Made by a program: the position numbers and the translations under genes. A DNA stretch of 19,854 nucleotides from positions 132 to 19,985 of the forward strand of contig DDWF01000078.1 of NCBI GenBank assembly GCA_002345845.1, read 5' to 3'. Every line of letters starts with the position of its first letter. Position 1 is the first letter of the stretch. This document shows positions 1,208 through 19,854 of this stretch, one piece after another. Below the pieces are notes generated by a model that saw nothing but the letters and a program-made list of their open reading frames with translations, made no database searches and was not told the origin of the DNA. The stretch comes from Betaproteobacteria bacterium UBA2293. GTDB taxonomy: Bacteria > Pseudomonadota > Gammaproteobacteria > Burkholderiales > Rhodocyclaceae.

Positions 1208-1246
1208 GGGCGGCGAAGGAGGCTGGGTCAAGCGGGGAAGCCGCGC

Positions 1247-1252
1247 ATTTTA
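1247..1252 (-). promoter_or_regulatory. candidate -10 element for dusB-fis
   Basis: The 69-base gap between the menA stop and the dusB start contains TAAAAT when read on the minus strand, about 40 bases before the dusB ATG. A TTGACT lies upstream, but its spacing of about 22 bases is too long for a standard sigma-70 promoter, so only the -10 is proposed. Weak evidence. Confidence 0.25.
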
Positions 1253-1276
1253 CCCGAGTCGGCGCCTAAAAAATAG

Positions 1277-2149
1277 TCAAATCGTGAAGGCCAGGGTTAA
1301 CAGCAGGGCGAACACGAGTTGCAGGCCGGCCGTCGCCGCCAGGATATTGTTGAAGACTGGCCCCGGCGCCTCGCGGTAGAAACGGCTGATCAGGCGCAGA
1401 GCCAGCGGCAGCGAGAGCAGCGGTAGCAGGGCCGGCCAGCCGAGGTCGGCGAGCAGCGGCAGCAGCAGGTAAGGGGCGAGCATTTGCGCCGCGTACAGGT
1501 GGCGAGTTGCTGGCCGGCCCAGGCGCACGGCCAGCGTGTTCTTGCCGTTGGCCGCATCGCCGTCGTGGTCGCGGTAATTGTTGACGGTGATCACCGCCGC
1601 CGCGTGCAGGCCGACCAATGCCGCGGCGAGCAGGGCGCCGGCGCGCAGGTCCAGCGTTTGCAGGTAATAGCTGCCGCCGACTGCGACCAGGCCGAAGAAG
1701 AGAAAGACGAAAACTTCGCCGAGCGGCCCGTAGGCGATCGGCTTCGGGCCGCCGGTATAGGCCCAGCCAGCGGCCAGCGAGCACAGGCCGATGGCGACGA
1801 TCGGCCAGCCGCCGTGCCAGACGAGATAAATGCCGCACAGGAAGGCCAGGGCGAAGGCCAGCCAGGCACCGGCACGGATCGCCTGGGCGCTGAGCCAGCC
1901 CTCGGCCGCCGCCCGCTTCGGGCCGAGGCGGCCGGGCGTGTCGGTGCCGCGCAGGAAGTCGCCGACGTCGTTGAACAGGTTGGTGCCGATCTGGATGAAG
2001 GCGGCGCCGAGCGCCGCCGCCAGCAGCGGTAGCCAGAGCAGGACACCGCTGTCGTGCCAGGCGACGGCGCTGCCGACGACGACCGGCGACAGCGAGACAG
2101 TCAGCGTCTTCGGGCGACAGGCGAGGAACCAGGCGGTGCTTTGCTTCAT
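1277..2149 (-). CDS. menA: UbiA-family prenyltransferase, MenA-like (1,4-dihydroxy-2-naphthoate polyprenyltransferase)
   Basis: Integral-membrane prenyltransferase of 290 residues. MenA attaches the polyprenyl tail to 1,4-dihydroxy-2-naphthoate, giving demethylmenaquinone. Two aspartate-rich motifs typical of the family bind the prenyl diphosphate through magnesium: NLFNDVGDF (residues 58-65) and NNYRDHDGD (190-198). The second is written NN.RD..GD, the MenA-type form rather than the UbiA form. The N-terminus (ACRPKTLTVSLSPVVVGSA) also fits MenA. About eight to nine hydrophobic helices are visible. It stands alone: no other men gene is present, and its neighbours are ubiH and dusB, separated by 67 and 69 bases. 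Whether this organism makes menaquinone, or the enzyme acts on another quinone precursor, cannot be told from the window. Start is the ATG at 2149; no strong ribosome binding site is visible. Confidence 0.8.
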   Translation of the reverse strand: MKQSTAWFLACRPKTLTVSLSPVVVGSAVAWHDSGVLLWLPLLAAALGAAFIQIGTNLFNDVGDFLRGTDTPGRLGPKRAAAEGWLSAQAIRAGAWLAFALAFLCGIYLVWHGGWPIVAIGLCSLAAGWAYTGGPKPIAYGPLGEVFVFLFFGLVAVGGSYYLQTLDLRAGALLAAALVGLHAAAVITVNNYRDHDGDAANGKNTLAVRLGRPATRHLYAAQMLAPYLLLPLLADLGWPALLPLLSLPLALRLISRFYREAPGPVFNNILAATAGLQLVFALLLTLAFTI

Positions 2150-2216
2150 GCGGATGGGGCGGAGAGCGGGGAGCGAGACTTTAGCGCAGTTGCCGCACTG
2201 CTGCCCTTGCCGCGGA

Positions 2217-3366
2217 TCAAGGCCAGGCGCGGGCGCCCCAGATCATCCGCTTGGCGACGAAATGGCGGGCCGGCGGGCACAGGTCGATGGCGAGCAGACC
2301 GAGGCCGCGGGCCAGCTTGAGCGGGCCGAAGTCGTTGGAGAAAGCCTTGACGATCCGGTCGGTAAACAAGGCGCCGCCGCGGCGGTCGAGTTGGCGGCTA
2401 GCGGCGTAGCGCTGCAGGCTGGCGGTTATGCACTCCCCATGGTCGAGGCCGTTGGCGAGCAGCGTTTCGGCCAGCTGCCAGGCGTCGCGCAGGCCGAGAT
2501 TGAAGCCCTGGCCGGAGACCGGGTGCAGCGTCTGGGCGGCATTGCCAATCCACACCTGCTGGCCTTCGACCAGGGTTTTGCGCTGGCGCAGGGCGAGCGG
2601 GAAGCGGCTGCGCCGGCCGGGGCTGGCAAAGTGTAGGCGCTGGCCGAACTGGGCTTGCAGGGCGGCGGTGAAGGCCGTGTCGTCAAGCGCCATGACGGCG
2701 TCGGCCTTGGCCGGCGGCAGCGTGAATACGATCGAGTATTCGTCGCCGAGCGGCAGCAGGGCGAGCGGTCCGTCGGGGGTGAAGCGTTCCCAGGCGCGTT
2801 TGTTGTGGCCGGGCGTCGGGGTGACTTCGCAGATCACGGCGTGCTGGGCGTAGTCGCTGACCGAAACGGCCGGATCGTCGCCGGGTGTGCCTTCGGCATG
2901 AACCAGCAGCCGGCAGCGGATGGTGCGCAACTGGCCGGCATGGCGCAGGGCGACGGTGGCGCCGTCGTCGTCCGCCGTGATGTCGACGATTTCGGCCTCT
3001 GCGAGCAAGCTGCCGTCGGTCAGGTTGGTGGCCAGCGAGGCGGCCAGGTCGCGGTAGCGGACGACGTAGCCGAGCGCCGGCAGGCGGTAGTCGGCACGGT
3101 CGATCAGGGTGCGGCCGAAGCCGTCCTTTTGTGAGATGTGGATGGTTTCGATCGGCGTTGCCGCGCGTGTCGGCCAGGAATTGATCTGTTCGAGCAGTTC
3201 GCGGGCGCCGTGCGACAGGGCCAGGGCGCGCGGGTCGGCCTGTAGGGCGACCTGAGGGCGGCGGTCGAGCAGCAGTGATTTCTGCCCGCCGGCGGCCAGC
3301 GCCAGATGCAAGGTCATGCCGACCGGGCCGGCACCGATGATCAGGATATCGACGTATTCGACCGCC

Positions 3367-3374
<8 letters not shown>
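2217..3374 (-). CDS. ubiH: UbiH-type FAD-dependent monooxygenase (2-octaprenyl-6-methoxyphenol hydroxylase)
   Basis: Flavoprotein hydroxylase of the UbiH/UbiF/VisC family that adds a ring hydroxyl during ubiquinone synthesis; 385 residues. The FAD Rossmann motif IIGAGPVGM is at residues 12-20. The C-terminal FAD motif GNAAQTLHPVSGQGFNLGLR is almost the wording of E. coli UbiH, as is the following SLQRYAASRQLDR region. The middle DG motif is changed to EG (LLVHAEGTPGDD). The frame is open for 34 more codons upstream, but that extension is arginine-rich shadow sequence inside pepP; the ATG at 3374 gives a normal N-terminus and overlaps the pepP stop by eight bases. The pepP-ubiH order matches the E. 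coli pepP-ubiH operon, which supports UbiH over other family members. Confidence 0.88.
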
Positions 3375-6366
<2,992 letters not shown>

Positions 6367-6454
6367 CGGGTAGGGGTCTGTTCGTTGTAAAATGACGCGA
6401 TTTTAACACTCGGGCACCGGCCGTTCCGGTCCTGGCCCTTCGCTGATTGCCTCG
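6367..6454. promoter_or_regulatory. divergent promoter region between amgK and lptD
   Basis: The 88-base gap must hold the promoters for both divergent transcripts. It contains TAAAAT on the plus strand (6388-6393) and its exact inverse ATTTTA (6400-6405), separated by GACGCG. Each strand therefore offers a -10-like TAAAAT, and together they make a small palindrome. Clear -35 hexamers are not seen, and no strong Shine-Dalgarno precedes lptD. Inference from position and composition. Confidence 0.4.
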
Positions 6455-8998
6455 ATGCCCGGTTTTCCCCGACGTCCGCTCGCCGTTTTTGTTTGCTGCC
6501 TGTTCGCCGGCATGCAGGCCAGTCATGCTGCTGACGATATTCGCCAGTTGGGCGGCGCGGACGCAGAAATCACCGCTGATCGCAGCGCTGAGGCACCGTC
6601 AGGGGGCAGCGATGAGCCGGTTGCTCTGCGCAAGGAGCGGCGTTTCAACCAACTGAGTGGCCGGCAGGGCGCAACCCCCGATACTCGTGCCAGCGTCAGC
6701 GATGTTGTTAAACCGCAGAACAAGGACGACGAGCATCCGCTGTTTCTGATTGCCGACAAGATGGATGGCCAGGCCGACCGCCTGACCATCGCCGAGGGCG
6801 ATGTCGAGCTGCGCAAGGCTGGCGCGCTGCTGTTCGCCGATCGAGTCGCCTATCGGGTCATCGAGGACGAAGTGGAGGCCACCGGCAATGTCCGCCTGAT
6901 GCAGGATGGGGCGACCATCGAGACGCCCTACCTGCGCATGCGCCTGGCCGATCAGATTGGTCATGCCGAAAAGGTGGATTACCACATCGTCCGCCAGGTT
7001 GACAGCGAGTTCTATCGCCCGGGACGCACCGTCGTTACCGTGGCCAGTAGCAATGGGGCCACCAACGGAGCGCCAATGATGCTCAATGTGCCCGACGGCT
7101 ACGGCCTGCCGACCACCTCACCGCCGCGCCGGCCGTCGGCGGCGAGCGGCCAGGCGGAGCGTGTCGATTTCGAGGGCGAGAATCAGTTCCGTTTTTCAAC
7201 GACGACCTATTCGACCTGCAAGCCGGGCCAGGACGAATGGCGTCTGCAGGCCGAGGAAATGCATCTTGACTACGATCGCCAGGTCGGCGACGTGCGCCAT
7301 GCCTCGCTGTGGTTTCAGGAAGTGCCGATTCTCTATCTGCCCGCCGGTTCCTTTTCGCTCAATCAGCAACGCAAGTCGGGCATTCTGCAACCCTCGCTGT
7401 CGACTTCCTCGAACAACGGTATCGACGTCACCGTGCCGTACTACTGGAATATCGCCCCTGACTACGACGCCACGCTCTATCCGCGCTACATGGGCAAGCG
7501 GGGTTTCCAACTGGGGGGCGAGGCGCGTTATTTGGGGAGCAGTTTCAACGGCACCACGCAAGCCGAGTACCTGCCCAAGGATGAGCAGACCGAATTGCGA
7601 CGCTATGCCTATAGTATTCAGCATCAGCACAGCCTCGGCCGGGGTTTTTCGGCTACGGTGAACTGGCAGGGGGTATCTGACGATACCTACTGGGAAGACC
7701 TCTCTTCCGGCTTGATCAAGACATCGCAGACGCAGTTGCCCCGCCACCTGACTCTGGGCTATGCCCCCTTCTCGTGGTTGCAGTCGTCCGCTCAGGTATT
7801 GCGTTACCAGACTCTGCAGCCTGATCCGGAAAATCCCATCGTCCAGCCCTACTTCCTCGAACCGCGGCTGAACGTCACTGCCTACAAGGCGAACGTCCTC
7901 AATACCGATTTGTCGATGATCGGCCAGTATTCGCGCTTTACTCATCCGGATACAGTGAATTATCCGAATGGCGATCGCCTGGTTCTCTATCCGCAGGTTT
8001 CGCTGCCGATTGTTCATCCGGCCTTTCAGATCACGCCCAAGTTCGGCGTGCATATGACCCGCTACCAGATGGACAAGGTGCTGGCCAACGGCAGCCAGAG
8101 CATTTCCCGGACGCTGCCAATTTTCACCCTTGATTCAACGGTCACCTTCGAGCGCGAGATGCGCTGGCTGGACAACAACTACATCCAGACCCTGGAGCCT
8201 CGCCTCTATTACGTCAATATTCCCTATCGCGAACAGAAGGACATCCCGCTGTTCGACACGGCGCTATCCGACTTCAATTTCGCCCAGATGTTTTCGGAAA
8301 ACCGATACAGCGGCTTCGACCGGGTTAACGACGCCAATCAATTAACGGCGGCGCTGACCACGCGCCTGCTCGATGCCTCGACCGGTGCCGAGCGCTTCAA
8401 AGCCATGATTGGCCAGCGCTACTACTTCAAGCCGCAAAGGGTCTCGATTAGCGGCGAGAACACCCGTCAGGATAATTTTTCCAATCTCGTCGCGGCGGTC
8501 AGCGGTGTCGTGCTGCCGAAAACCTACGCCGATGCTGCCTGGGAATACAACTACGATGCCGGGGCCAACGAGCGCTTTTCTGTTGGCGCGCGCTTCCAGC
8601 CGGAACTGGGCAAGGTGCTGAGCGCCAGTTACCGTTTTACGCGCGATCCGCTCAACGAACAGAAGCCGATCGTCGATCAGGTCGACATCGCTGGCCAGTG
8701 GCCGATCGCCCAGCGCTGGTACGCTGTCGGGCGCTTCAATTACTCGTTACGCGATTCGCAACTGCTTGAAGCCATCGGTGGTATCGAGTACAACGACGAT
8801 TGCTGGTCGGTGCGGATCGTTGGCCAGCGTTTGGAGGCCCTTTCCGGTTCGCCGAATACGTCCTTGTTCCTGCAGCTCGAACTTAACGACTTCGGCAGCA
8901 TTGGCTCCAATCCGCTCAACCTGCTGCGGCGCAGCATCCCTGGCTACGGCAAAACCAACGAACTGCCCGATAGCGGCAGCCTGCTCTCAACACCATGA
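6455..8998 (+). CDS. lptD: LPS-assembly protein LptD
   Basis: Outer-membrane beta-barrel that, with LptE, inserts lipopolysaccharide into the outer leaflet; 847 residues. Residues 1-25 form a signal peptide (two arginines, a hydrophobic core, cleavage after ASHA). An OstA/LptA-like N-terminal domain covers about 95-180 ([20 protein letters not shown]). The barrel follows from about 260, beginning with the conserved [17 protein letters not shown] region. The mature part has only two cysteines, Cys255 (TYSTCKPGQ) and Cys783 ([10 protein letters not shown]), compared with four in E. coli; one long-range disulfide remains possible. A proline-rich stretch near 215-232 precedes the first cysteine. 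The stop overlaps the surA start (ATGA), so the barrel and its chaperone are translated in tandem. Confidence 0.96.
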
Positions 8999-10311
8999 TT
9001 ACCATGCCCCAAACCGTCTACCGCCTGCTCGTCCTGTTCACACTCTTCGGCCTGCTGACCTCACCGTCGGGGCGCATCGCCGCGGCCGAGCCGCTCGAGG
9101 CGGATCACATCGTCGCCGTCGTCAATTCGGAAGTGATCACCCGCCACGACCTGAATAGTCGCCTCGAGTCGGCCCTGCGGCAACTGCGCGCCCAGGGCAC
9201 GCCGTTGCCGCCGCAGGAGCAGCTCGAACGGCAGATGCTTGAACGGCTGATCATGGAGCGCGTCCAGTTGCAGTACGCGCAGGAAACCGGCATCAAGCCC
9301 GATGACGGCCAGCTCGACCAGGCCATCGGCCGCATTGCTGCCGGCAACAAGCTGTCGCTGGCCGATTTTCGCAAGGCCCTGGAGGCAGACGGCATCACCT
9401 TCGCCAGCTTCCGTGAGGAAATCCGCAACGAAATGAGCATGGTCCGCCTGCGCGAACGCGAGGTGGACAGCAAACTGGTCGTCTCCGAAGGCGAGATCGA
9501 CAACTATCTGGCCAATCAGGCGGCCAGCGGCGGCAACGAGGAATACCAGCTGGCTCACATCCTGCTGCGGGCACCTGAATCGGCCAGTCCGGAGCAATTG
9601 CAGAAATTGCGCCAGCGCGGCGAGGAAGCCCTGAAACGCGCCAACGCCGGTGAAAATTTCGCCGAACTGAGTGCCGCCTATTCCGATGCGCCCGACGCCC
9701 TGCGGGGCGGCTCCCTGGGCTGGCGCCCGCGTGACCGCCTACCCACCCTCTATGCTGAGGCGATCACTACCCTGCAGCCGGGCCAGGTCAGCGACCTGCT
9801 GCGCTCCTCGGTGGGTTTTCACATCGTCAAGCTGGTCGAGCGGCGCGGTGGCAATGCTCCCGCTTCCGTGCAGCAGACACGCGCCCGGCACATCCTGGTC
9901 CGCATCAACGAAGTGGTGTCGGAAACGGAAGCGCGGCACAAGTTGGAGATTGTCCGTGAGCGCATCGCCAATGGCGTCGATTTTGCCGAGCAGGCCAGGC
10001 TCTATTCGCAGGATGGCTCGGCCGCCAAGGGCGGTGACCTCGGCTGGTTGAACCCCGGCGATACGGTGCCGGAGTTCGAGCGGGCAATGAACGCACTGCA
10101 GCCGAACGAACTGAGCGCGGTCATCAAGTCGCCGTTCGGCATGCATCTGATCCAGGTACAGGAGCGCCGCGAGCGTGACGTCTCCGCCGAGCGCCAGCGT
10201 GCCGTTGCCCGCCAGGCACTGCGTGAACGCAAGCTCGACGAGGCCTACGAGGACTGGTTGCGCCAGTTGCGGGATCGCAGCTACGTCGAGAATCGTCTGG
10301 GCGAACAATGA
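8995..10311 (+). CDS. surA: periplasmic chaperone and peptidyl-prolyl isomerase SurA
   Basis: Periplasmic chaperone for outer-membrane barrel proteins, LptD being a major client. The 438-residue product has a signal peptide (about 1-31, ending IAAAEP), a SurA N-terminal domain (about 35-170, starting [15 protein letters not shown]), and two parvulin domains: P1 about 184-284 ([10 protein letters not shown] through [10 protein letters not shown]) and P2 about 295-393 (RARHILVRI through [10 protein letters not shown]). The GGSLGW and GGDLGW turns are typical of parvulins. Length is near that of E. coli SurA. The start overlaps lptD by four bases, and the stop overlaps pdxA by four. A second ATG three codons in (9004) is an alternative start. 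Confidence 0.95.
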
Positions 10312-11300
10312 TCGCTCCCGTCATCGCCGTCACCAGCGGCGAACCGGCTGGCATCGGGCCGGAGTTGTGCCTGAAACTCGCCGGCTGGCGCGGGCCGGGG
10401 CGGCCAGTGGTGCTCGGCGATCGCGCGCTTCTGCGCCAGCGGGCTGAATTGACCGGCGCCGCCGTCATCTTGCGCGACTATTCGCCAGCGTTGCCGGTGG
10501 CCAATGGGGTCCTCGACATCGTGCACATTCCCTTGCCTGTGCCGTCGTCTGCCGGCGAACTGACTGCCGACAATGCGCCCTACGTACTCGAACTGCTCGA
10601 CCGGGCGCTAGCCGGTTGCCGAAACGGCGAGTTCGCCGCGATGGCGACGGCGCCGGTGCACAAAGGCATCATCAACGACGCTGGCATCGCCTTCACCGGT
10701 CATACCGAATACCTTGCCGACAACACCGGCACGCCGCTGGTCGTCATGATGCTGGCCGGCGACACGCCGCGCGGTCCGCTGCGCGTCGCCCTGGCCACCA
10801 CCCATCTGCCGCTGCGCCAGGTGCCGGACGCGATCACCGCCGATCAACTCGAACGGACACTGCGCATCCTGCATGCCGACCTGTGCAGCAAGTACGGCAT
10901 CGGCGAGCCGCGTATTCTGGTCGCCGGCCTCAATCCGCACGCCGGCGAAGGCGGTTATCTGGGCATGGAAGAAATCGAGATCATCACGCCAGTACTGGAG
11001 AAGTTGCGGGGCGAAGGCATGCTGCTCTCCGGACCGCATCCGGCCGACACCATGTTCACTCCGCCGGTGCTGGCCGGTGGCGATGCCGTGCTGGCGATGT
11101 TCCACGATCAGGGCCTGACGGCGTTGAAATACGCCACCTTCGGCCACGGCATCAATGTCACCCTCGGCCTGCCGATCATCCGCACCTCGGTTGATCACGG
11201 CACGGCGCTGGCCCTGGCCGGCAACGGCCGGGCCGATCCCGGCAGCCTGTTTGCGGCTGTTGCCGAAGCCGCGCGCATGGCCGAAAGGAAAGCTGCATGA
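10308..11300 (+). CDS. pdxA: 4-hydroxythreonine-4-phosphate dehydrogenase
   Basis: Oxidises 4-phosphohydroxy-L-threonine with NAD in the DXP-dependent pyridoxal-phosphate pathway; cytoplasmic, 330 residues. Signature stretches are [11 protein letters not shown] (9-19), FTGHTEYLA (129-137), [16 protein letters not shown] (207-222), [10 protein letters not shown] (241-250) and [11 protein letters not shown] (from 265). Candidate zinc-binding histidines fall at 166, 211 and 266, the same numbers as in E. coli PdxA. It is placed by ATGA overlaps between surA and ksgA, the order known from enterobacteria. Confidence 0.96.
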
Positions 11301-12064
11301 AAGGACACGTCGCTCGTAAGCGCTTCGGCCAGAACTTCCTGGTAGACAGCGGCATCATCGGCGCCATTGTCTCCGCCATTGACCCGCAGCGCGGCGATAC
11401 CGTCGTCGAGATCGGCCCCGGTCTGGGGGCAATTACCGAACCGCTGATGGCACGTCTCGATCATCTGCATGTCGTCGAGATCGACCGCGACCTGATCACC
11501 CGCCTGAAGAAGCAACATCCGCCGGCGCGCATGACCATTCACGAAGGCGACGCCCTGGCTTTCGATTTCGCCAGCATCGGCAAGGATCTGCGGCTGGTCG
11601 GCAACCTGCCCTACAACATCTCGACGCCGCTGCTCTTCCATTTGGCCGAGTACGTCGGCGTCGTCCGCGACATGCATTTCATGCTGCAGAAGGAAGTGGT
11701 CGAGCGCATGGTAGCGGTGCCCGGCGACGGCGATTTCGGCCGCCTGTCGGTGATGCTGCAATACCGCTTCCATCTCGAATGGTTGATCGACGTGCCGCCG
11801 GAGAGCTTCGATCCGCCGCCCAAGGTGCAGTCGGCAGTGGTGCGCCTGATCCCCAAGGACGTCGCCGAACTGACGGCCAAAGACATGACGCAGTTCTCCC
11901 GCATCGTCCAGACCGCCTTCGCCCAGCGCCGCAAGATGTTGCGCAACACCCTGAAAGGTGTGCTCGACGACGCCGGCTTCGCTGCTCTCGGCATCAGTCC
12001 GACCCTGCGCCCGGAGGATCTGGCGGTGGACGAATACGTGCGCATCGCCAATTACCTGGCGTAA
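11297..12064 (+). CDS. rsmA: 16S rRNA (adenine1518/1519-N6)-dimethyltransferase
   Basis: RsmA (KsgA) dimethylates two adjacent adenines in helix 45 of 16S rRNA and acts as a late check on 30S assembly; its loss gives kasugamycin resistance. The 255-residue protein starts [16 protein letters not shown], the conserved RNA-binding entry. It has the S-adenosylmethionine motif [12 protein letters not shown] (residues 36-47), EIDRDL (61-66) and the catalytic NLPYN (103-107). [14 protein letters not shown] towards the C-terminus is also typical. It is the last gene of lptD-surA-pdxA-rsmA, and its TAA runs straight into the terminator. The apaG and apaH genes that follow in E. coli are absent here. 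Confidence 0.96.
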
Positions 12065-12090
12065 AAAAACCCGCCGGAGCGGGCTTTTTT
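12064..12090. terminator. bidirectional intrinsic terminator between rsmA and the DUF2892 gene
   Basis: CCCGC, a CGGA loop and GCGGG are flanked by a run of A on the left and six T on the right. Read on the plus strand it ends the lptD operon; read on the minus strand it also has a T run and can end the convergent DUF2892 transcript. The A run begins in the rsmA stop codon. Confidence 0.88.
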
Positions 12091-12107
12091 GCGGTGCGGT
12101 TTGCGCC

Positions 12108-12299
12108 TTAGTCTTTCTTCACCGGGCACGTACTCAGGCCGAGGATCGGGTAGAGCGGGCACCAGCCCATCAGGCCGGTAGCCAGGGGGACGATGCCGAT
12201 CCAGGCCCAGACCGGGCCGCCCATCAGTGCCCAGGCGATCAGGGCGATACCGGCGACGATGCGCAGGATTTTGTCGATGCCGCCAACATTGCTTTTCAT
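12108..12299 (-). CDS. DUF2892 small inner-membrane protein
   Basis: A 63-residue membrane protein of the DUF2892 (YgaP transmembrane-like) family. The family pattern is clear: MKSNVGGIDKILRIVAGIAL at the start, then GLMGWCPLYPILGLSTCPV near the end, with two hydrophobic helices (about 12-28 and 30-46). The WCPLY and STC cysteines are the family's conserved pair. In other proteins this domain is fused to rhodanese, and stand-alone copies often lie near sulfur or redox genes (family knowledge), but the function is unknown. A good ribosome binding site (GGAGAA) precedes the ATG. It lies directly downstream of the Crp/Fnr-type gene, with a palindromic candidate operator between them. Confidence 0.85.
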   Translation of the reverse strand: MKSNVGGIDKILRIVAGIALIAWALMGGPVWAWIGIVPLATGLMGWCPLYPILGLSTCPVKKD

Positions 12300-12364
12300 G
12301 TCTGTTCTCCATCAAGTGAGAGGTTGCTACGGAGCGCACTGTAGCCGGCAAGCTGCGCCCGGTA

Positions 12365-12383
12365 TGTAACCTGTGTCACACAG
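12365..12383. promoter_or_regulatory. candidate Crp/Fnr-type operator upstream of the DUF2892 gene
   Basis: Read on the minus strand, TGTGACACAGGTTACA has two near-symmetric half sites (TGTGA and TGTAA in inverse) with six bases between, the spacing used by Crp-type dimers. A second, perfect palindrome CTGTGT-C-ACACAG (12371-12383) overlaps it and includes the stop codon of the regulator gene. The site lies about 65 bases before the DUF2892 start. Seen directly; its role is inference. Confidence 0.4.
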
Positions 12384-13050
12384 TCGCGATACGTTGCAGG
12401 CCGCTGCGGTCGCTGATGGCGATCTGTTCGCGACCGAGGCTGACCAGTCCCTGAGCGGCAAAACCCTTGAGCAGGCGGCTGACGATTTCGCGAACGCTGC
12501 CGAGTTCGTCGGCCAGTTGCTGATGGGTGATGGCGATCAGCGTTTCGTTGCGGGCCAGCAGCAGCTTGGCCAGGCGCTGGTCGAGGCGGGCAAAGGCCAC
12601 TTCCTCGACCAGTTGCATCAATTCGCTAATGCGCTCGGCGAAGAGATGGAAGACGAAATCGCGGAACGGTGGGTGGTCGACCATCAGTTCCGCGAACAGC
12701 GGCACCGGGAGGACGAGCAGGGTGAGCGGTGTTTCGGCAATGCCGCGGGCATTGTAGTCGCTCTTGCCGAGCAGGCAACTCGAGGAAATGATGCAGGAGC
12801 CGCCCGGTGCAACGCGGTAAAGCACCAGTTCGCGACCGCTGGCCGCCAGCTTGCAGACCTTGATGCTGCCGGCGAGGAGCAGGGGAAATCCCTGGCAGGG
12901 CTGGTGTTCGGCAAAGACCTGGGTGCCGGCCGGCAGGCGCATGACGGCCGTTGGTTGCAGCAGGGCGGCGAGGTGCGCAGCCGGCAGACAGTTCAATGCC
13001 GGATAGAGGGCGAGCAGGGCCGGGGCATCGACGTTTGCCGTGGTGTTCAT
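12376..13050 (-). CDS. Crp/Fnr-family transcriptional regulator
   Basis: A 224-residue regulator with an N-terminal cyclic-nucleotide-binding-like sensor domain (about 10-130, LLLAGSIKVCKLAASGRELV inside) and a C-terminal winged helix. The recognition region is ITHQQLADELGSVREIVSRL (174-193). The sensor lacks the usual FGE cAMP pocket; at that place it has SCIISSSCLLGK. It carries five cysteines (21, 52, 66, 86, 92) but not the N-terminal iron-sulfur cysteine cluster of Fnr. The signal is unknown; redox or sulfide sensing by cysteines is only a guess. The frame is open further upstream, but the ATG at 13050, one base after the exoA stop, gives a normal start. It is likely co-transcribed with exoA and may control the downstream DUF2892 gene. 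Confidence 0.87.
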   Translation of the reverse strand: MNTTANVDAPALLALYPALNCLPAAHLAALLQPTAVMRLPAGTQVFAEHQPCQGFPLLLAGSIKVCKLAASGRELVLYRVAPGGSCIISSSCLLGKSDYNARGIAETPLTLLVLPVPLFAELMVDHPPFRDFVFHLFAERISELMQLVEEVAFARLDQRLAKLLLARNETLIAITHQQLADELGSVREIVSRLLKGFAAQGLVSLGREQIAISDRSGLQRIATV

Positions 13051-13051
13051 G

Positions 13052-13816
<765 letters not shown>

Positions 13817-13874
13817 GAAGTGACGGGGGCGAGGGAGGAACCCGATTCTGCCACAGCCCCCCTGGCCAAAGGCT

Positions 13875-14399
13875 TCATTCGGCGGGCTTGTCGGCGGCTG
13901 GCTCCGTCGCCGGGGCCAGACCGCCGGAAGGCTTGCTGCCGTAGGCGGCAGTCTTCGGGTAGCCGGCCAGATCGAGCAGATTGTTGTAGGCGCCGGTCTC
14001 GAAGCCACGGAAGCTCTGTTGGCCGACCTTGAGCGTCGGGACGAAGACATCGCCGACCAGGGCCTTCAGTTCGGCAGCGTCTTCCGCCTTTTGCAGCATT
14101 TTCTCGGTGAATGGGATGCCGCGGCCGTTGAGCATGTCGCGCGCCTGCTTGCACTCGGTGACGCAGTCGGCCGCCGTGTACAAGGTCACGGGAAAGTTCT
14201 CGCGTGCCTTGCGCACAGCAAACGGCAGGTCTTCGCTGGTGGCCGATGAGCCTTCGCCGACGCGGGTGACTGCCTTGGCCTTGCCCGGCGGCGGGGTGTC
14301 GGAAATGATCGTGCGGCCGGTGGAGTCAACCCAGCGGTAGGCCTGGGCGGAAGCGCCGACGCTGAGCAGCGCCAGGCAGAGGACGAGCAGGTAACGCAT
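13875..14399 (-). CDS. DUF4124 and glutaredoxin-like domain protein, exported
   Basis: A 174-residue exported protein. Residues 1-20 are a signal peptide (MRYLLVLCLALLSVGASAQA). Then comes a DUF4124 module (AYRWVDSTGRTIISDTPPPG, about 20-39) and a glutaredoxin-like domain (about 70-150) starting FPVTLYTAADCVTECKQAR, with cis-proline VPTL (120-123). The two cysteines (79 and 83) are spaced CX3C instead of the CXXC or CXXS of ordinary glutaredoxins, so disulfide chemistry may differ. The tail (150-174) is rich in alanine, proline and glutamate. The start at 14399 was chosen because GGGAGA lies at good spacing. It follows prlC by 19 bases and is probably co-transcribed with it. Substrate unknown. 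Confidence 0.8.
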   Translation of the reverse strand: MRYLLVLCLALLSVGASAQAYRWVDSTGRTIISDTPPPGKAKAVTRVGEGSSATSEDLPFAVRKARENFPVTLYTAADCVTECKQARDMLNGRGIPFTEKMLQKAEDAAELKALVGDVFVPTLKVGQQSFRGFETGAYNNLLDLAGYPKTAAYGSKPSGGLAPATEPAADKPAE

Positions 14400-14418
14400 G
14401 GCAATCTCCCGAGTGGGT

Positions 14419-16476
14419 CTATCCGGCAATCATACCGCTATGACGCAACAGTGCGTCCACGCTTGGCTCACGGCCGCGGAAGGCGCGGAAGGATTCGAGT
14501 GCCGGGCGGGCGCCGCCCATCGACAGGATCTCGTCGAGGAAGCGCTTGCCGACGGTGGCGTCGAACGGGTCGCCGGCCTCCTCGAAGGCGGCGTAGGCGT
14601 CGGCCGACAGCACTTCCGCCCACTTGTAGCTGTAGTAGCCGGCGGCATAGCCACCACCGAAGATGTGCGAGAAGCTGTTCGGGAAGCGGTGCCATTCGGG
14701 CGGGATCAGCACGGCGACCTCCCGGCGCACGGTATTGACCAGATCCATGACAGTCAGCGGGCCCTTGGGGTCGAAGTCGCAGTGCAGCAGCATGTCGAAC
14801 AGCGAGAACTCGATCTGGCGGACCGTCATCATGCCGCTTTGGAAATTCTTCGCCGCCAGCATCTTGTCGAACAGGGCGCGCGGCAGCGGTTCGCCGCTAT
14901 CGACGTGGGCGGTCATGTCCTGCAGCACTTCCCATTCCCAGCAATAGTTCTCCATGAATTGCGACGGTAGTTCGACGGCATCCCATTCGACGCCGTGGAT
15001 GCCGGAGACGCCCAGTTCCTCACCGCGCGTCAGCAGGTGGTGCAGGCCGTGGCCGGACTCGTGGAACAGGGTGATGACTTCGTCGTGGGTGAAGGTCGCC
15101 GGTTTGCCGCCAACCGGCGGGGCGAAGTTGCAGTTCAGATAGGCGATCGGTTTTTGAATTCCGGCCCCGGCCCGCCGGCGCGAGCGCGCCTCATCCATCC
15201 AGGCGCCGCCGCGCTTGGTTTCGCGGGCATACAGATCCATGTAGAACTGGCCGACCAGTTCGCCGGCCGGAGTCTCGATGCGGTAGAAGCGCACCGCGTC
15301 GTCCCAGGCCGGTGCCAAGTCCGGCTTGACCTTGACGGTGAACAGGCTTTCGATGACCTTGAACAGTCCGGCGATCACTTTCGGCTCGGTGAAGTATTGC
15401 TTCACCTCCTGTTCGGAGAAGGCGTAGCGTGCTTGCAGCAGCTTTTCCGAGACGTAGGCGGCATCCCAGGGCTGGAAATCGGCCAGGCCCAGTTCATCCT
15501 TGGCGAAGGCTTTCAGTTCGGCGATGTCCTTCGCCGCATACGGCTTGGCTTTGGCTGCCATGTCGCGCAGGAAGGCGAGCACCTGCGCCGGCGTGTCGGC
15601 CATTTTCGGCTGCAGCGAGACTTCGGCGAAATTGTTGAAGCCGAGCATCTGCGCATCTTCGGCGCGCAGTTCGAGGATGCGGTTCATGATCGGCGTGTTG
15701 TCCCACTCCGGCTTGCTCGAACCATCGGTGAATTCGGCGGCGCGGGTGGCATAGGCGCGGTACAGGCGGGCGCGTAGCTCGCGGTTGTCGGCGTATTGCA
15801 TCACCGGGCCGTAGGAGGGGGCGTGCAGGGTGAATTTCCAGCCGTCGAGCCCAGCCTTATCGGCCGCCTCGCGGGCGGCTTCCTTCGCATAGTCGGGCAG
15901 GCCGGCCAGCTGGGATTCGTCGGTGATGATCTCGGCGAAAGCGTTGGTGGCGTCGAGCAGGTTTTCCGAGAACTTGGCGGACAGTTGCGACAGTTCTTCC
16001 ATGATCGCCTGGTAGCGCGGCTTCTGCTCTTCCGGCAGTTCGGCGCCGGAGAGGCGGAAGTCGCGGATCTCGTTGTCGACGATCTTCTTCTGCTCGCGCG
16101 ACAGCGTCGCGTATTCCGGGCTGGCCTTCAGCGCCCGGTACTTGTCGAACAGTTTCAGGTTCTGGCCGAGCTCGCTGTAGAAGCGCGAGACTTCCGGCAG
16201 CATCTCGTTGTAGGCCTCGCGCCAGGCCGGCACGTCGTTGACCGAGTGCAGGTGGCCGACGACGCCCCAGGCACGGCCGAAGGCTTCCAGACCCACTGAC
16301 AGGGCGCCGGCAAAGTCGTTCCAGGTGGCGGGCGTGCTCTCGGCCGTCAGCCGTTCGATCAAGGCCCGGCCATCGGTGAGCAGGGATTCAATGGCCGGCT
16401 TGACGTGCTCCGGCTGAATCAGGTCGAAACGCGGAAGGTCGGAGAAGTCGAGCAGCGGGTTTTGGGCGGTGGTCAT
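14419..16476 (-). CDS. prlC: oligopeptidase A (M3 family zinc peptidase)
   Basis: Cytoplasmic zinc endopeptidase that degrades short peptides, including cleaved signal peptides. The 685-residue product starts MTTAQNPLLDFSDLPRFDLI, like E. coli OpdA (680 residues). The zinc motif is FHESGHGLHH (471-480) with His472, Glu473 and His476, followed by the third ligand Glu502 in VEWDAVELPSQFMEN. PLPRALFDKMLAAKNFQSGM after it is another family block. The ATG at 16476 was preferred; an in-frame TTG at 16491 would add five residues. No strong ribosome binding site is visible. A terminator for the upstream DUF2189 gene lies about 17 bases before the start, so prlC probably has its own promoter or depends on readthrough. 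Confidence 0.95.
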   Translation of the reverse strand: MTTAQNPLLDFSDLPRFDLIQPEHVKPAIESLLTDGRALIERLTAESTPATWNDFAGALSVGLEAFGRAWGVVGHLHSVNDVPAWREAYNEMLPEVSRFYSELGQNLKLFDKYRALKASPEYATLSREQKKIVDNEIRDFRLSGAELPEEQKPRYQAIMEELSQLSAKFSENLLDATNAFAEIITDESQLAGLPDYAKEAAREAADKAGLDGWKFTLHAPSYGPVMQYADNRELRARLYRAYATRAAEFTDGSSKPEWDNTPIMNRILELRAEDAQMLGFNNFAEVSLQPKMADTPAQVLAFLRDMAAKAKPYAAKDIAELKAFAKDELGLADFQPWDAAYVSEKLLQARYAFSEQEVKQYFTEPKVIAGLFKVIESLFTVKVKPDLAPAWDDAVRFYRIETPAGELVGQFYMDLYARETKRGGAWMDEARSRRRAGAGIQKPIAYLNCNFAPPVGGKPATFTHDEVITLFHESGHGLHHLLTRGEELGVSGIHGVEWDAVELPSQFMENYCWEWEVLQDMTAHVDSGEPLPRALFDKMLAAKNFQSGMMTVRQIEFSLFDMLLHCDFDPKGPLTVMDLVNTVRREVAVLIPPEWHRFPNSFSHIFGGGYAAGYYSYKWAEVLSADAYAAFEEAGDPFDATVGKRFLDEILSMGGARPALESFRAFRGREPSVDALLRHSGMIAG

Positions 16477-16492
16477 GGTCGTCGGGGGCAAG

Positions 16493-16515
16493 AAAAAGGG
16501 CGGTCTGCGCCGCCC
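16493..16515 (-). terminator. intrinsic terminator downstream of the DUF2189 gene
   Basis: On the minus strand GGGCGG, a six-base CGCAGA loop and CCGCCC are followed by TTTTTCTT. The hairpin lies between the DUF2189 stop (16537) and the prlC start (16476). Confidence 0.75.
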
Positions 16516-16536
16516 CTGGGTGTCGGGAGGAGCGGC

Positions 16537-17304
16537 CTATTCTACAAGGTCGCGATAGGCGTGCCATGAAGCGTGGCCGAGAATCGGCATCAGCACGACC
16601 AGGCCGAAGAGCAGCGTGGCGAAACCAAGCAGGGTCAAAGCGACGATGATGGCTGCCCACAGCAGCAGCGGCCAGGGGTTGTGAGCGACGGCGCGCAGAC
16701 TGGCGAGCATGGCGGTGGCCACATCGGCGTCACGGTCGAGCATCATCGGCACCGAAACGACCGCCAGGGCGAAGACGACCATGGCCATGATGGCGCCGAT
16801 GGCGAACCAGGTGGCGATGAAGCCGAGGTGTTCGCCGCCAAGAATGATGTCGCTGAGTACGGCGCTGCCGACCATGTCGCCGCCGATGAGGGCGAAAGCG
16901 ACGGCCGAGAAGCGTTCCCAGATGATCGCCATGAGCGCCAGCAGCAGACCGAACAGCGCTAGCGACTGGCCGTTGCGGCGGAAGCAGCGCAGCGAGTCGA
17001 TGAACAGCAGGCGCTCGCCACGACCACTGGCGCGGCTCAGTTCATAGAGGCCGGCGGCGAGCAAGGGGGCGAGCAGGAAGAAGCCGGAGATCGCCACCGT
17101 CAGCAGATGCGGATGGTCGAGCACCGCCAGGATGATCAGGTCGCCACCGAGGGCGAACAGCAGACCATAGGCCAGCGAGGGCAGCGGATTGGCCTTGAGG
17201 TCGCGCCAGCCGGCCTTGAGCCAGGCCAGCGGACGCTCGGCGGAGATGGTGCGGACCGCCGGCAGATCAAAACCGGTCACATCGAAATCGAAGGAATGGC
17301 GCAT
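16537..17304 (-). CDS. DUF2189 integral membrane protein
   Basis: A 255-residue inner-membrane protein of the DUF2189 type. It opens with a soluble segment containing AVRTISAERPLAWLKAGWRD, a family hallmark, followed by about six hydrophobic helices (roughly 42-62, 66-87, 113-133, 138-155, 162-186 and 215-245). A basic loop, RCFRRNG, lies between helices two and three, and LRAVAHNPWPLLLWA precedes the last helices. The function is not known; the family is common in proteobacteria. A clear AGGAG ribosome binding site precedes the ATG at 17304. It is flanked on both sides by terminators (purC's upstream and its own downstream), so it is probably a single-gene transcript. Confidence 0.83.
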   Translation of the reverse strand: MRHSFDFDVTGFDLPAVRTISAERPLAWLKAGWRDLKANPLPSLAYGLLFALGGDLIILAVLDHPHLLTVAISGFFLLAPLLAAGLYELSRASGRGERLLFIDSLRCFRRNGQSLALFGLLLALMAIIWERFSAVAFALIGGDMVGSAVLSDIILGGEHLGFIATWFAIGAIMAMVVFALAVVSVPMMLDRDADVATAMLASLRAVAHNPWPLLLWAAIIVALTLLGFATLLFGLVVLMPILGHASWHAYRDLVE

Positions 17305-17367
17305 GGCAGGCTCCTGGCATAGGAATACTGCCGTCAGACCGGAGCTGTGCCAGAGGGTTCCCCAAGC

Positions 17368-17391
17368 AAAACGCCCCGCAGGGCGGGGCGT
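17368..17391 (-). terminator. intrinsic terminator of purC
   Basis: On the minus strand ACGCCCCGC, a three-base loop and GCGGGGCGT are followed by TTTTG. The nine-base perfect stem lies about 30 bases after the purC stop codon. Confidence 0.88.
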
Positions 17392-17419
17392 CGTGTTGCC
17401 GCGTGGTCTGCCGAATGCC

Positions 17420-18352
17420 TTACAGCGTCTTGCCGGTCAGCTTCTCATAGGCCTCGATGTACTTGGCGCTGGTGCGGGCGATGACGTCGGCCGGCAGCTT
17501 CGGGCCGGGGGCGACCTTGCCCCAGTCCAGGGTTTCCAGGTAGTCGCGGACGTACTGCTTGTCGTAGGACGGCGGGTTGCTGCCTTCGGCGTACTGGTCG
17601 GCCGGCCAGAAACGTGAGGAATCCGGGGTCAGCGCTTCGTCGATCAGGTGCAGGGTACCGGCGGCGTCGATGCCGAACTCGAACTTGGTGTCGGCGATGA
17701 TGATGCCGCGCGTTGACGCATAGACGGCGGCTTCTTCATAAAGGCGGATGGCCGCATCGCGGGCTTCGGCACACAGCTGGGCGCCGCTCTTGCCGGTGCC
17801 CTTGAGGGCGTCGGCCAGGGTGGCGTCGCAGTTGGCGGCGGCCTGCTCGTAGGAAACGTTCTCGTCGTGGTCACCGACTTCGGCCTTGGTCGCCGGGGTG
17901 AAGATCGGGCTGGGCAGCTTGGCCGCCATCTTCAGGCCGGCCGGCAGGGCGATGCCGCAGATGGCGCCGGTCTGCTGGTAATCCTTCCAGCCGGAACCGA
18001 TCACGTAGCCGCGGACCACGGCCTCGATCGGCAGCGGCTGCAGGCGCTTGACGACGACGGCACGGCCGCGCACCTGTTCGCGTTCGTTGGCGGCGACGAC
18101 CGATTCCGGGTCAATGCCGGTCAGCTGGTTGGGCACGATGTGGCCGAGCTTCTCGAACCAGAAGTTGGCGACGGCCTGCAGCACCTCGCCCTTGCGCGGA
18201 ATCGGGTCCGGAAGGATGACGTCGAAGGCGGAGAGGCGGTCGGTGGTGACGATCAGCAGCTTGTCGGCGTCGACGGCGTAGATGTCGCGGACCTTGCCCT
18301 TGTTGAGCAGCGGCAGGCTGGTGATGGAGGATTCGAAGAGCGGAGCGGTCAC
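17420..18352 (-). CDS. purC: phosphoribosylaminoimidazole-succinocarboxamide synthase
   Basis: SAICAR synthase joins CAIR and aspartate with ATP in purine synthesis. The product is 310 residues if started at the GTG at 18352. Landmarks are [14 protein letters not shown] (15-28), [20 protein letters not shown] (38-57), [19 protein letters not shown] (108-126), then [13 protein letters not shown] and [15 protein letters not shown]. It belongs to the long form (about 300 residues) found in betaproteobacteria and yeast, not the 237-residue E. coli form. No in-frame ATG fits; the frame is open 37 codons further upstream, but that part crosses the promoter and is not conserved-looking. The ribosome binding site is weak. 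Terminator downstream and -10 upstream define a single-gene transcript. Confidence 0.95.
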
Positions 18353-18379
18353 GGTCGTGGTCCCGAAAGCAAAAGCGCG

Positions 18380-18385
18380 ATTATA
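18380..18385 (-). promoter_or_regulatory. -10 element of the purC promoter
   Basis: A perfect TATAAT on the minus strand lies 27 bases before the purC GTG, giving a short leader. The -35 is poor (around TCAAGC at 17-base spacing). No purine-repressor-like palindrome was recognised. Confidence 0.55.
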
Positions 18386-18713
18386 AATCAAGGCAAAAAG
18401 CCGCTTGACGGCGATTGTACGGATTAAGCGCGGGGCAATCCGGATCGCGAATCCGGCTGGCAACTGATTGACGCCAGCCTGCCGGCTTCAGGCAAGTTGG
18501 CAGCCGCGGGCGAAATCCGGTGCAAACGGCATATCCGCTCGACATGGTTGCGCACAGTGCTTAAGCTGTGACGCGGGCAATCAATCGCCTCAAGAGACTG
18601 CCCAGGCAAGCGCGAGGATGATTCGGTGGCATGCCGTAAATGCTGTCGGGAAGTTGTTGTGGGGAACACAATTGTTCAGCGAATGCAACATTACAAGCAC
18701 CTTGGGAGGCGCC
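18386..18713. other. non-coding stretch between purC promoter and repeat ORF; several small hairpins
   Basis: No convincing gene. Stem-loops seen are CCGGAT/ATCCGG (18440-18456, five-base loop) and, partly overlapping, GGCTGGC/GCCAGCC (18455-18479, 11-base loop), followed by smaller ones. They exclude one another in part and lack T runs, so they are not clear terminators. GAACA/TGTTC at about 18663-18676 is another small dyad. No integrase gene remnant was recognised on either strand. Frames open across it have no ribosome binding site or family resemblance. Confidence 0.4.
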
Positions 18714-18929
18714 ATGTTCACCAGCTTAGACGGCAGCAGATCAGGATATACGACGCTCACGCCGTATATCCTGGCAAAGCGCCATGTTTCGCCGCCATCC
18801 ATCCTTGAGAATAATCCAGCCACCCCTTTCGAAAGCCCCCCTGGGTGGCCTTCTCCGACTGATGTGCTGACCGGAATGGATGGCATCAAACCAGCTTATA
18901 CGGCGCTTATGCCGTCCACTTCACGTTAG
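18714..18929 (+). CDS. possible small protein of 71 residues with an internal repeat
   Basis: Short open frame whose ATG is preceded by GGGAGG (18705-18710), a good Shine-Dalgarno at slightly short spacing. The product begins MFTSLDGSRSGYTTLTPYIL and ends GMDGIKPAYTALMPSTSR; the two ends resemble each other (T, DG, YT, L and P shared at equal spacing) 50 codons apart. No signal peptide, helix or known domain is recognised. The TAG stop is formed by the GTTAG of the recombination core at 18925, as is common for cassette genes. Against it: the same DNA holds nested inverted repeats, another alignment of the repeats breaks the frame, and a 99-codon frame is open on the other strand. It may be a chance frame over structured DNA. 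Confidence 0.35.
   Translation: MFTSLDGSRSGYTTLTPYILAKRHVSPPSILENNPATPFESPPGWPSPTDVLTGMDGIKPAYTALMPSTSR
18721..18915. repeat. nest of direct and inverted repeats at the left edge of the cassette array
   Basis: CCAGCTTA plus TACG(A/G)CGCT(C/T)A(C/T)GCCGT occurs twice: at 18721-18765, where the two parts are split by 20 extra bases, and compactly at 18891-18915. Inverted repeats are CAGGATATACG/CGTATATCCTG (18742-18752 and 18763-18773, ten-base loop), GCCATCCAT/ATGGATGGC (18794-18802 and 18876-18884), GCCACCC/GGGTGGC (18819-18825 and 18843-18849), the palindrome CTTTCGAAAG (18826-18835) inside the last pair, and ACGGC/GCCGT (18900-18904 and 18911-18915). The pair at 18819 lies inside the pair at 18794, so the segment could fold as a branched structure. 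Confidence 0.7.
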
Positions 18930-18931
18930 CC
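18925..18931 (+). other. integron recombination core (GTTAGCC), attI-like or degenerate attC, at the left edge of cassette 1
   Basis: GTTAGCC is identical to the R' core of the complete attC at 19412-19418, and the next gene starts three bases later, as the second cassette gene does. Upstream, CCACTTCAC loosely resembles an L' box, but no matching R'' (GGCTAAC) or paired L'' is found within 150 bases. It therefore fits an attI site or a decayed attC better than an intact attC. Confidence 0.6.
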
Positions 18932-18934
18932 CTG

Positions 18935-19354
18935 ATGATCACTGACCAACAATCTCTGCAGGCAATCCGTGACAGTTGGGCTGGCGTTCGAGAACTGAAA
19001 AAGCACGCACAACTGATGAGACTTGTTCCAGGCATGGGTTTCATAGACTTTGGGGGCTCGACGCCAGATGCATTTTGGAACCTGCCATTCGCACTTGCAT
19101 ACTCCGTATTGGATCAAGCGTTGTCGGCACTGAGAGATCAAAGTGTCTTTGTTTGTGGGACATGGATGCTTGGTCCGAAAATGGAGGCGTCCAAACAGCA
19201 TTTGCCGTGGCAAGACTACGATCTTGTGAGCCGCGGGAAGGATGCGAGAAATGATTTAGCGCACCGAGCGATTCTCTTGCCCAAGAAGGAGTGCTTCTTG
19301 TACGTCGATGCGGTAGGTGTAGAGCTAAAAGCATGGGGAATAGTTAATGGCTAA
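18935..19354 (+). CDS. cassette-encoded hypothetical protein with HEPN-like RX4H motif
   Basis: A 139-residue soluble protein not recognised as a named family. It looks mostly helical: an N-terminal helix (about 5-30), a hydrophobic helix DAFWNLPFALAYSVLDQALS (45-64), and near the C-terminus RGKDARNDLAHRAILL (100-115), which contains RNDLAH (Arg105 to His110). An arginine, a polar residue and a histidine at RX4-6H spacing in a helix is the active-site pattern of HEPN ribonucleases, common in toxin and defence systems; this is motif resemblance only. The ATG follows the GTTAGCC core by three bases with no ribosome binding site, and the TAA lies within the R'' arm of the attC behind it, both typical of integron cassettes. 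GC is visibly lower than in the housekeeping genes. No antitoxin-like gene shares the cassette. Confidence 0.75.
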   Translation: MITDQQSLQAIRDSWAGVRELKKHAQLMRLVPGMGFIDFGGSTPDAFWNLPFALAYSVLDQALSALRDQSVFVCGTWMLGPKMEASKQHLPWQDYDLVSRGKDARNDLAHRAILLPKKECFLYVDAVGVELKAWGIVNG

Positions 19355-19418
19355 CACCTCATTCCACCGGACTTGGCGCGGCAAGCCGCGCCAAGTCCGG
19401 TGAATTCAAACGTTAGCC
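19349..19418 (+). other. attC recombination site (59-base element) of an integron cassette
   Basis: This 70-base imperfect palindrome starts with R'' GGCTAAC (19349-19355) and ends with R' GTTAGCC (19412-19418), exact inverse complements. Next to them are L''-like TCATTCCACC and L'-like GGTGAATTCAAAC, with the same wording as the L boxes of the aadA attC. The centre is an 18-base perfect stem (19365-19382 with 19385-19402). The unequal 9-base arms between R and stem leave the unpaired and extrahelical bases that integrases use. Insertion is expected between G and TTAGCC. The site belongs to the cassette whose gene ends in its R'' arm. Confidence 0.92.
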
Positions 19419-19421
19419 GCT

Positions 19422-19796
19422 ATGACACCATCGCACTCCAAGCTCGCCAGTATTGTTGCCATCGCCTACGTCTTGATTGTTGTAGGGGGCATGCTGCTTC
19501 ACTTTTTCAACACCGGCGACCTCGGCACTCTTAAGTACAGCCTTATGCTTCCCGCCACGCTGGCCGCCGTTTTCGTTGGCAGCCTAGTCGCATTTGGTCT
19601 ATGGCATCGCTTTGCCTGGGCGTGGTGGTTAGGCCTGGCTGCAGTTGGCACCCAACTCATTCGCTTCGGTAGCTGGTTCATTGGTCGCTTGAGTGTTGGT
19701 GATGCGCCTGTGGCTTCATGGGCCATCGCCGTTCTGCTCTTGGCCTTCCTATTTCTGTTGCTCGCTAAGGCCACGCGCCAACAATGCACTCGTTAA
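19422..19796 (+). CDS. cassette-encoded hypothetical four-helix membrane protein
   Basis: A 124-residue integral membrane protein with four predicted helices: about 9-28 (ASIVAIAYVLIVVGGMLLHF), 40-60 (LMLPATLAAVFVGSLVAFGL), 63-85 (RFAWAWWLGLAAVGTQLIRF) and 97-115 (ASWAIAVLLLAFLFLLLAK). The tail KATRQQCTR is basic. Loops are short and there is no catalytic-looking motif. No family is recognised; small multi-helix proteins of unknown role are frequent in integron cassettes. The ATG follows the GTTAGCC core by three bases, without a Shine-Dalgarno. The TAA at 19794-19796 is four bases before a GGCTAAC core. Expression would depend on an upstream promoter or readthrough. Confidence 0.7.
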   Translation: MTPSHSKLASIVAIAYVLIVVGGMLLHFFNTGDLGTLKYSLMLPATLAAVFVGSLVAFGLWHRFAWAWWLGLAAVGTQLIRFGSWFIGRLSVGDAPVASWAIAVLLLAFLFLLLAKATRQQCTR

Positions 19797-19800
19797 ACGC

Positions 19801-19854
19801 GGCTAACCCAGCATATATGGACTCCCCCGGAAAACAAGGAAACTGATCGATAGT
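19801..19854 (+). other. start of a second attC (R'' core), interrupted or atypical, cut by the window edge
   Basis: GGCTAAC at 19801-19807 repeats the R'' core of the first attC and lies just after the stop codon of the second cassette gene. The following bases (CCAGCATATATGGACTCCCC) lack the L''-type TCATTC seen in the first attC. From TGGACTCCCCCGG (19817-19829) the sequence resembles the terminal inverted repeats of some IS3-family elements, which start with TG and have a CCCCGG block. Window end prevents a decision. Confidence 0.45.

Follow-up and report, generated by a model that had tools for sequence, protein, structure and literature searches.

An integron cassette array upstream of purC

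How did integron cassettes come to lie beside a housekeeping gene with no usable integrase gene next to them, and can such an array still gain or lose cassettes? We addressed these questions in a 19,854-nt stretch of DNA from Betaproteobacteria bacterium UBA2293, the whole of which is referred to here as the window. The host is a freshwater-type bacterium, and positions 6455-17304 of the window carry ordinary housekeeping genes including lptD, surA, pdxA, an M3 peptidase gene and the gene for a DUF2189 membrane protein. The first-pass annotation, made from the sequence alone, had described an integron cassette array beside housekeeping genes, inserted directly behind purC. The array is borne out by its cores, attC and cassettes, while its placement had to be revised, as purC is encoded on the minus strand with its start at 18352 and the array lies upstream of it in divergent orientation, beginning 573 bp away. 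The features of this region are as follows.

17423..18352, minus strand: purC, SAICAR synthetase (Pfam PF01259, E 4.4e-69; NCBIfam NF010568, 455 bits)
18353..18391, minus strand: purC upstream stretch common to relatives (10 of 80 purC loci match by blastn over 32-42 nt)
18926..19412, plus strand: cassette 1, 487 nt from R' core to R' core (R' cores at 18925 and 19412)
18935..19354, plus strand: cassette 1 gene, encoding a 139-aa HEPN-like protein with an invariant RNxxxH
19349..19418, plus strand: attC of cassette 1 (covariance model, 52 bits; DNA fold)
19413..19854, plus strand: cassette 2, incomplete, with an interruption close to its end, extending as far as the window edge (R' core at 19412; loci L093, L094 and L095 carry homologous cassettes)
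19422..19796, plus strand: cassette 2 gene, encoding a 124-aa predicted membrane protein (database relatives, hydrophobic segments)
19801..19813, plus strand: opening 13 nt, on the R'' side, of the cassette 2 attC (GGCTAACCCAGC, shared with the attC that this cassette has in L093 and L095)
19814..19854, strand not assigned: end of an IS1111-attC-type insertion sequence (IS), which splits the second attC (subterminal repeat ATGGACTCCCCC at 19817-19828)

The GTTAGCC and GGCTAAC cores had been recognised at first pass but counted as three. There are four. GTTAGCC stands at 18925 and 19412, GGCTAAC at 19349 and 19801, with no fifth core of either form anywhere in the 19,854 bases. The two short plus-strand genes reported between them correspond to the ORFs at 18935-19354 and 19422-19796. 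The single complete attC was likewise confirmed by a covariance-model search of the window, a check that the same annotation had proposed. The model was based on 28 attC sites chosen in relatives by a simple caller or by eye, excluding the window; with it, 19349-19418 scored 52 bits (E 2.3e-10), the next best match in the window reaching 11.8 bits. The bottom strand of this site folds at -30.5 kcal/mol (z -8.8, equalled by none of 200 shuffles), and the fold leaves one base extrahelical and a spacer unpaired. Rfam gave no match at gathering thresholds, and an initial loose listing of attC sites was discarded as consisting mostly of chance stems. The low G+C content attributed to the cassettes holds in direction without being extreme, with values of 0.515 (cassette 1) and 0.561 (cassette 2 as far as it is visible) compared to 0.644 for positions 1-18391.

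Cassette genes and an insertion sequence

The cassette 1 protein contains the Rx4-6H motif of the HEPN superfamily, and R105, N106 and H110 are invariant in 21 aligned sequences (21 of the 23 family members found, two shorter ones being omitted). It also agrees with the helical-bundle fold of HEPN proteins. Pfam gave no match with the single protein; the 21-member family yielded weak matches including DUF4145 (7), HEPN_Swt1 (5) and HEPN_RiboL-PSP (2), with a best E of 0.0048. Searches of the cassette proteins with PADLOC and PHROGs returned nothing. An HEPN-type protein with an Rx4-6H motif has been described from another integron cassette (PDB 3jrt, PMC3710099). The family in the window, in contrast, matched no PDB chain by sequence at E 10, and judged by its sequences it is probably separate from that of 3jrt. 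Among 299 relatives the family was found in one genome (G110) at E 1e-5. This homologue (G110:C358:12041-12450, in loci L221 and L222) is split into two reading frames, and no attC was found in the short loci around it.

The cassette 2 gene has 30 database relatives with up to 95 % identity. Copies 94-98 % identical to it lie between attC sites in each of three other genomes (L093, L094 and L095), and such similarity between genomes suggests that the cassette moved rather recently. An array carrying the gene at 98 % identity (L128, G051:C8:70002-86241) is headed by an internally deleted intI and is another stage of intI decay.

Directly after GGCTAACCCAGC the second attC ceases to match, and the following 41 nt (19814-19854) are identical at 37-39 positions to IS ends in the loci of nine relatives. 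We found 12 matches to this end, two of them at contig ends outside the fetched regions. The other ten, all within fetched regions, lie behind the R'' core of an attC, eight at the same offset as in the window and two one base nearer. The IS of one relative (L143) has perfect 12-bp subterminal repeats by eye and a transposase with PF02371 and PF01548 (IS110 family). Subterminal repeats and a transposase of this kind characterise the IS1111 family, in which certain elements insert at one end of attC (PMC11187229). ISKpn4 and ISPst6, described there as attC-targeting members of that family, resemble the L143 element in their 12-bp subterminal repeats, IS110-type transposase and insertion near the attC end; the comparison with the window itself extends to the 41 nt of its IS that are visible. 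Of the features of the IS1111-attC group, the window displays the fixed position within attC, and it contains one IS end (41 nt) only. The IS would have taken the attC of cassette 2 as its target, and with the IS in place this site can probably no longer serve to excise the cassette. Rightwards of the second attC the window shows nothing but this IS end, and the array may extend beyond it into the rest of the 81,612-base contig, a continuation that the first-pass annotation had expected. A plasmid search with the IS end gave no match. At another locus (L141, minus strand, around 8032) approximately 47 nt of the IS end lie inside an attC with the rest of the IS absent; this is a relic or footprint of an IS1111-attC-type element.

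An attI region and the remains of intI between purC and the cassettes

The closest purC proteins, 93-97 % identical, belong to Dechloromonas, Azonexus and other betaproteobacterial genomes and MAGs, taking the best 80 of 569 (the 80 loci amount to 1.34 Mb, many of the contigs being short). Homology of the window to these loci by blastn stops at approximately 18391. Within the reach of these contigs, none of the 80 loci contains either of the window's cassettes or the attI core described below (≤ 4 mismatches). Over this 1.34 Mb the covariance model found one attC and the simple caller 16 matches, one of which has a GTTA core like that of the window. The covariance-model match is a lone attC approximately 1.6 kb upstream of purC in a different Azonexaceae MAG (L039:8351-8435, plus strand); it has the opposite orientation, lies between two ORFs reading towards purC and shows no sign of kinship with the array in the window. 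We rejected the possibility that the array is a regular part of the purC locus, as the 80 loci, on contigs that are often short, hold no attI core with ≤ 4 mismatches and this one attC.

Cassettes beside a housekeeping gene without intI are what would be expected had an integrase placed one or two of them in a chance attG site upstream of purC, with no attI involved, and the absence of both attI core and cassettes from the 80 purC loci, together with the lone attC in L039, fits such an ectopic insertion. The sequence between purC and the first cassette argues against it. It contains three further features.

18524..18632, minus strand: 5' remnant of the integron integrase gene intI, decayed, 109 nt or about 36 codons (homology to intact integrons starts at 18524)
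18539..18567, plus strand: Pc-like promoter inside the intI stub, directed towards the cassettes (TCGACA-N17-TAAGCT)
18690..18927, plus strand: attI region (69-78 % identity, over part or full length, to sequence beside intact intI in seven relatives; core pattern)

The stretch 18524-18927 matches intact Azonexus/Dechloromonas-type intI-attI junctions in register to the GTT core, and in the case of the intact integron L120 the identity is 70 % over 408 nt (E 6e-59), extending up to that core. Its first 109 nt correspond to the start of intI, on the opposite strand, in the intact loci. When positions 18390-18940 were used as a DNA query, matches were found in 23 of 149 relatives, and 31 of the 32 matches listed lie in or reach the part from 18690 onwards. 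The attI match stands directly beside a full intI in seven genomes (69-78 % identity), and in relatives the same attI core immediately precedes the first cassette whether intI is present or not. The core (18891-18927) ends in a GTT, which we take to be the crossover triplet. With this homology to an intact junction, we rejected ectopic insertion at an attG site as highly improbable. An attI homologous to those of intact integrons, an intI stub, cassettes and an attC together indicate an attI-headed array that lost its integrase, and what the window contains is very probably a chromosomal integron of Azonexus/Dechloromonas type, seen at its proximal end, that no longer has its own integrase gene at the site. 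The purC side does form the edge of the array, as had been proposed; a simple insertion at that edge does not describe it, given that attI, the Pc-like promoter and the intI stub intervene.

Judged by sequence, two components of a complete integron, attI and attC, are both represented in the window, whereas no functional intI stands beside attI. None of the three frames on the strand of the stub reads like IntI and two of them contain stops, MAFFT places a 1-nt gap in it relative to intact genes, and tblastn with five IntI proteins found nothing in the window. From the purC upstream stretch to the stub, approximately 130 bases have no matches, hence the deletion junction itself is not seen.

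The inverted repeat of the attI core covaries over 36 distinct sequences, in which 90.7 % of cells are paired. Twelve cells are changed on both sides, a number reached by none of 500 shuffles; two pairs show two-sided change, a number reached by 60 of 500. The attI also contains repeated units, CCAGCTTA-ACGGC at 18721 and 18891 and GCGCCATGTT at 18709 and 18779 (within 18700-18788 and 18891-18905), which are reminiscent of the accessory direct repeats DR1 and DR2 of attI1.

Uneven decay of the locus and the Pc-like promoter

Conservation differs along the region when identity between the window and six intact loci is set against identity among the intact loci. The stub past the promoter motif (18564-18629) is 59 % identical compared to 86 %, and the leader 56 % compared to 81 %. 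In contrast, the distal attI (78 vs 79 %) and middle attI (70 vs 71 %; both within 18690-18850) are as conserved as in the intact integrons, so that intI decayed and much of attI was spared. Identity is also lower in the Pc stretch (18524-18563, 71 vs 89 %), the proximal attI (62 vs 70 %) and the core (74 vs 82 %).

TCGACA-N17-TATGCT occurs at the same position as the Pc-like motif in most intact relatives. A generic sigma-70 scan of 18350-19854 called no site, leaving the Pc-like motif uncalled, and its TAAGCT agrees with TATAAT at three of six positions. The Pc of class 1 integrons also lies inside the integrase gene, intI1, as outlined in PMC8946536. Among relatives the motif accompanies 11 of 12 attI cores with intI or an intI fragment; it was chosen after the sequences had been seen, and among 4000 random stretches 12 of 12 was never reached, and at least 11 in 0.2 %. 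The motif accompanies seven of the 24 intI-less cores, lying 175 to 353 nt ahead of them, and the other 17 show none. Retention of Pc is not general among intI-less cores.

The cassettes would have been captured at attI by the integron integrase acting on the bottom strand of the attC hairpin, with the integrase gene later mostly deleted and the array left beside purC. Transcription from the Pc-like promoter in the stub may still enter the HEPN-protein cassette and continue into the membrane-protein cassette. Without another integrase in the cell to act in trans on attI and attC, the array would be static. We see an even chance that the site is a mere relic on which no integrase has acted since intI decayed, an account consistent with the stops in the stub, the IS inside the second attC and the reduced conservation of the Pc stretch, proximal attI and core. 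The undiminished conservation of the distal and middle attI and the rather recent movement suggested by the cassette 2 gene speak against it, and the arrays of related genomes bear on it from both sides.

attI-headed arrays without intI in related genomes

We ran the attI core pattern (≤ 3 mismatches) on 149 relatives, obtaining 41 matches in 28 genomes compared to one for a reversed control. Four matches (in G058, G049, G061 and G081), each with three mismatches and with neither IntI nor attC in the fetched 3-10 kb, were dropped before counting; four other three-mismatch matches were kept because they head an attC or belong to a shared locus, a selection that leans towards the pattern. The 37 retained cores comprise nine with full intI, three with an intI fragment, 24 with none and one (in G062) left out of the evaluation, its contig ending 231 bp upstream, which leaves 36 evaluable. 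For the 24, tblastn of the upstream sequence fetched (2.6-7.5 kb) found no neighbouring intI. Of these, 23 are followed by one or more attC sites on the same strand, the remaining core being at a contig end; the proportion becomes 23 of 28 if the four dropped matches are counted.

The frequency of such units raises the possibility that sites like that in the window are still served in trans by an integrase encoded elsewhere in the genome, which we regard as a real prospect falling somewhat short of an even chance. An integrase scoring over the cut-off was found in 16 of 17 genomes with intI-less cores compared to 68 of 132 others (Fisher p 4.6e-4), although the 17 (16 genomes plus G062) were counted by hand, kinship was not controlled and confounds the enrichment, and the integrase of G050 contains a stop. 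In several of the genomes with intI-less cores, moreover, the resident IntI belongs to another clade and its adjacent candidate attI looks different by eye, an observation that weighs against service in trans and favours a dead relic.

Two intI-less loci have both flanks in common between related species and different cassettes between them. In G036 and G038 the left flanks share 4620 nt at 94.1 %, with 88.6 % over 1040 nt around attI, and the right flanks share 88-93 % over 12.3 kb in three pieces, and no IntI match was found at this locus. Between the flanks lie 4.4 and 4.0 kb with five and four attC sites, respectively, and unrelated cassettes, the only similarity being three stretches of 50-154 nt. 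G054, G065 and G045 have a second common intI-less locus of differing content, with one, two and one attC, respectively; in G045 most of the 9.4 kb is not bounded by attC. Two more pairs of genomes have a common left flank and a different first cassette, one pair being comparable over 92 nt only. The simplest reading of these sequences is that intI was already absent before the species split and that cassettes changed afterwards. That cassettes changed at orthologous intI-less loci argues against a dead relic. Shared flanks with different cassettes suggest either an integrase acting in trans or homologous recombination. The latter could take place between arrays or individual attC sites, and import of the entire region could also account for such turnover.

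A bolder reading, which we judge less likely than not, is that Azonexus/Dechloromonas-type bacteria possess a distributed system of intI-less units dispersed over the genome. Each would consist of an attI, sometimes a Pc, and cassettes, would have survived the loss of its own intI, and would still be filled and emptied in trans by an integrase encoded elsewhere; the window would be one such unit in which the stub is still recognisable.

Relation to known integrons

Arrays of attC-bounded cassettes with no usable intI nearby are known as CALINs (IntegronFinder 2.0, PMC9024848). The window resembles them in this respect and differs in that its attI can be identified and that a Pc-like promoter and a stub of intI are kept; the program's default is two attC sites, while the window has one complete site and a second that is interrupted by the IS and cut by the window edge. 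Both CALINs and decayed intI genes are established in the sources on which we draw (PMC9024848, PMC12444791, PMC2426708 and PMC3607928), with pseudogenes making up nearly a third of the intI genes in one survey (PMC2426708). In Xanthomonas, intI has decayed or is missing in some lineages and arrays remain, as here; host, locus and attI are different, and the passages of PMC12444791 cited here do not describe its CALINs as attI-headed. One attI-headed CALIN has been reported, from the Shewanella prophage M16-3, where an attI heads an intI-less array and the prophage also has a complete integron. By the account in PMC9892861 that is one prophage case, whereas the arrangement here recurs in the genomes of relatives and involves another attI. 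The chromosomal integron of Dechloromonas aromatica RCB (PMC2426708) comes from a related host, and the likeness drawn here is one of host. Dispersed attI-headed arrays in this group appear in none of the titles or abstract openings among the open-access matches listed.

According to PMC9024848, attI is poorly described outside class 1 and is not detected by IntegronFinder 2.0, and attI is therefore easily missed in intI-less arrays. An attI model for this group makes a working entry site, a promoter and service in trans of intI-less arrays directly testable. If such arrays are served in trans, this would change the view of how cassette reservoirs move, including those with stress- or defence-type genes such as HEPN. 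If the system is distributed as proposed, many CALINs would be working outposts and not dead remains.

Finally, one flank is common to eight of the nine full-intI loci of the relatives and to L128, with its deleted intI; the purC flank of the window has no match at those flanks. Two loci (L154 in G012:C6 and L215 in G034:C193) hold possible class 1-type integrons, in which the sequence beside intI resembles what we take to be the class 1 attI1 region.
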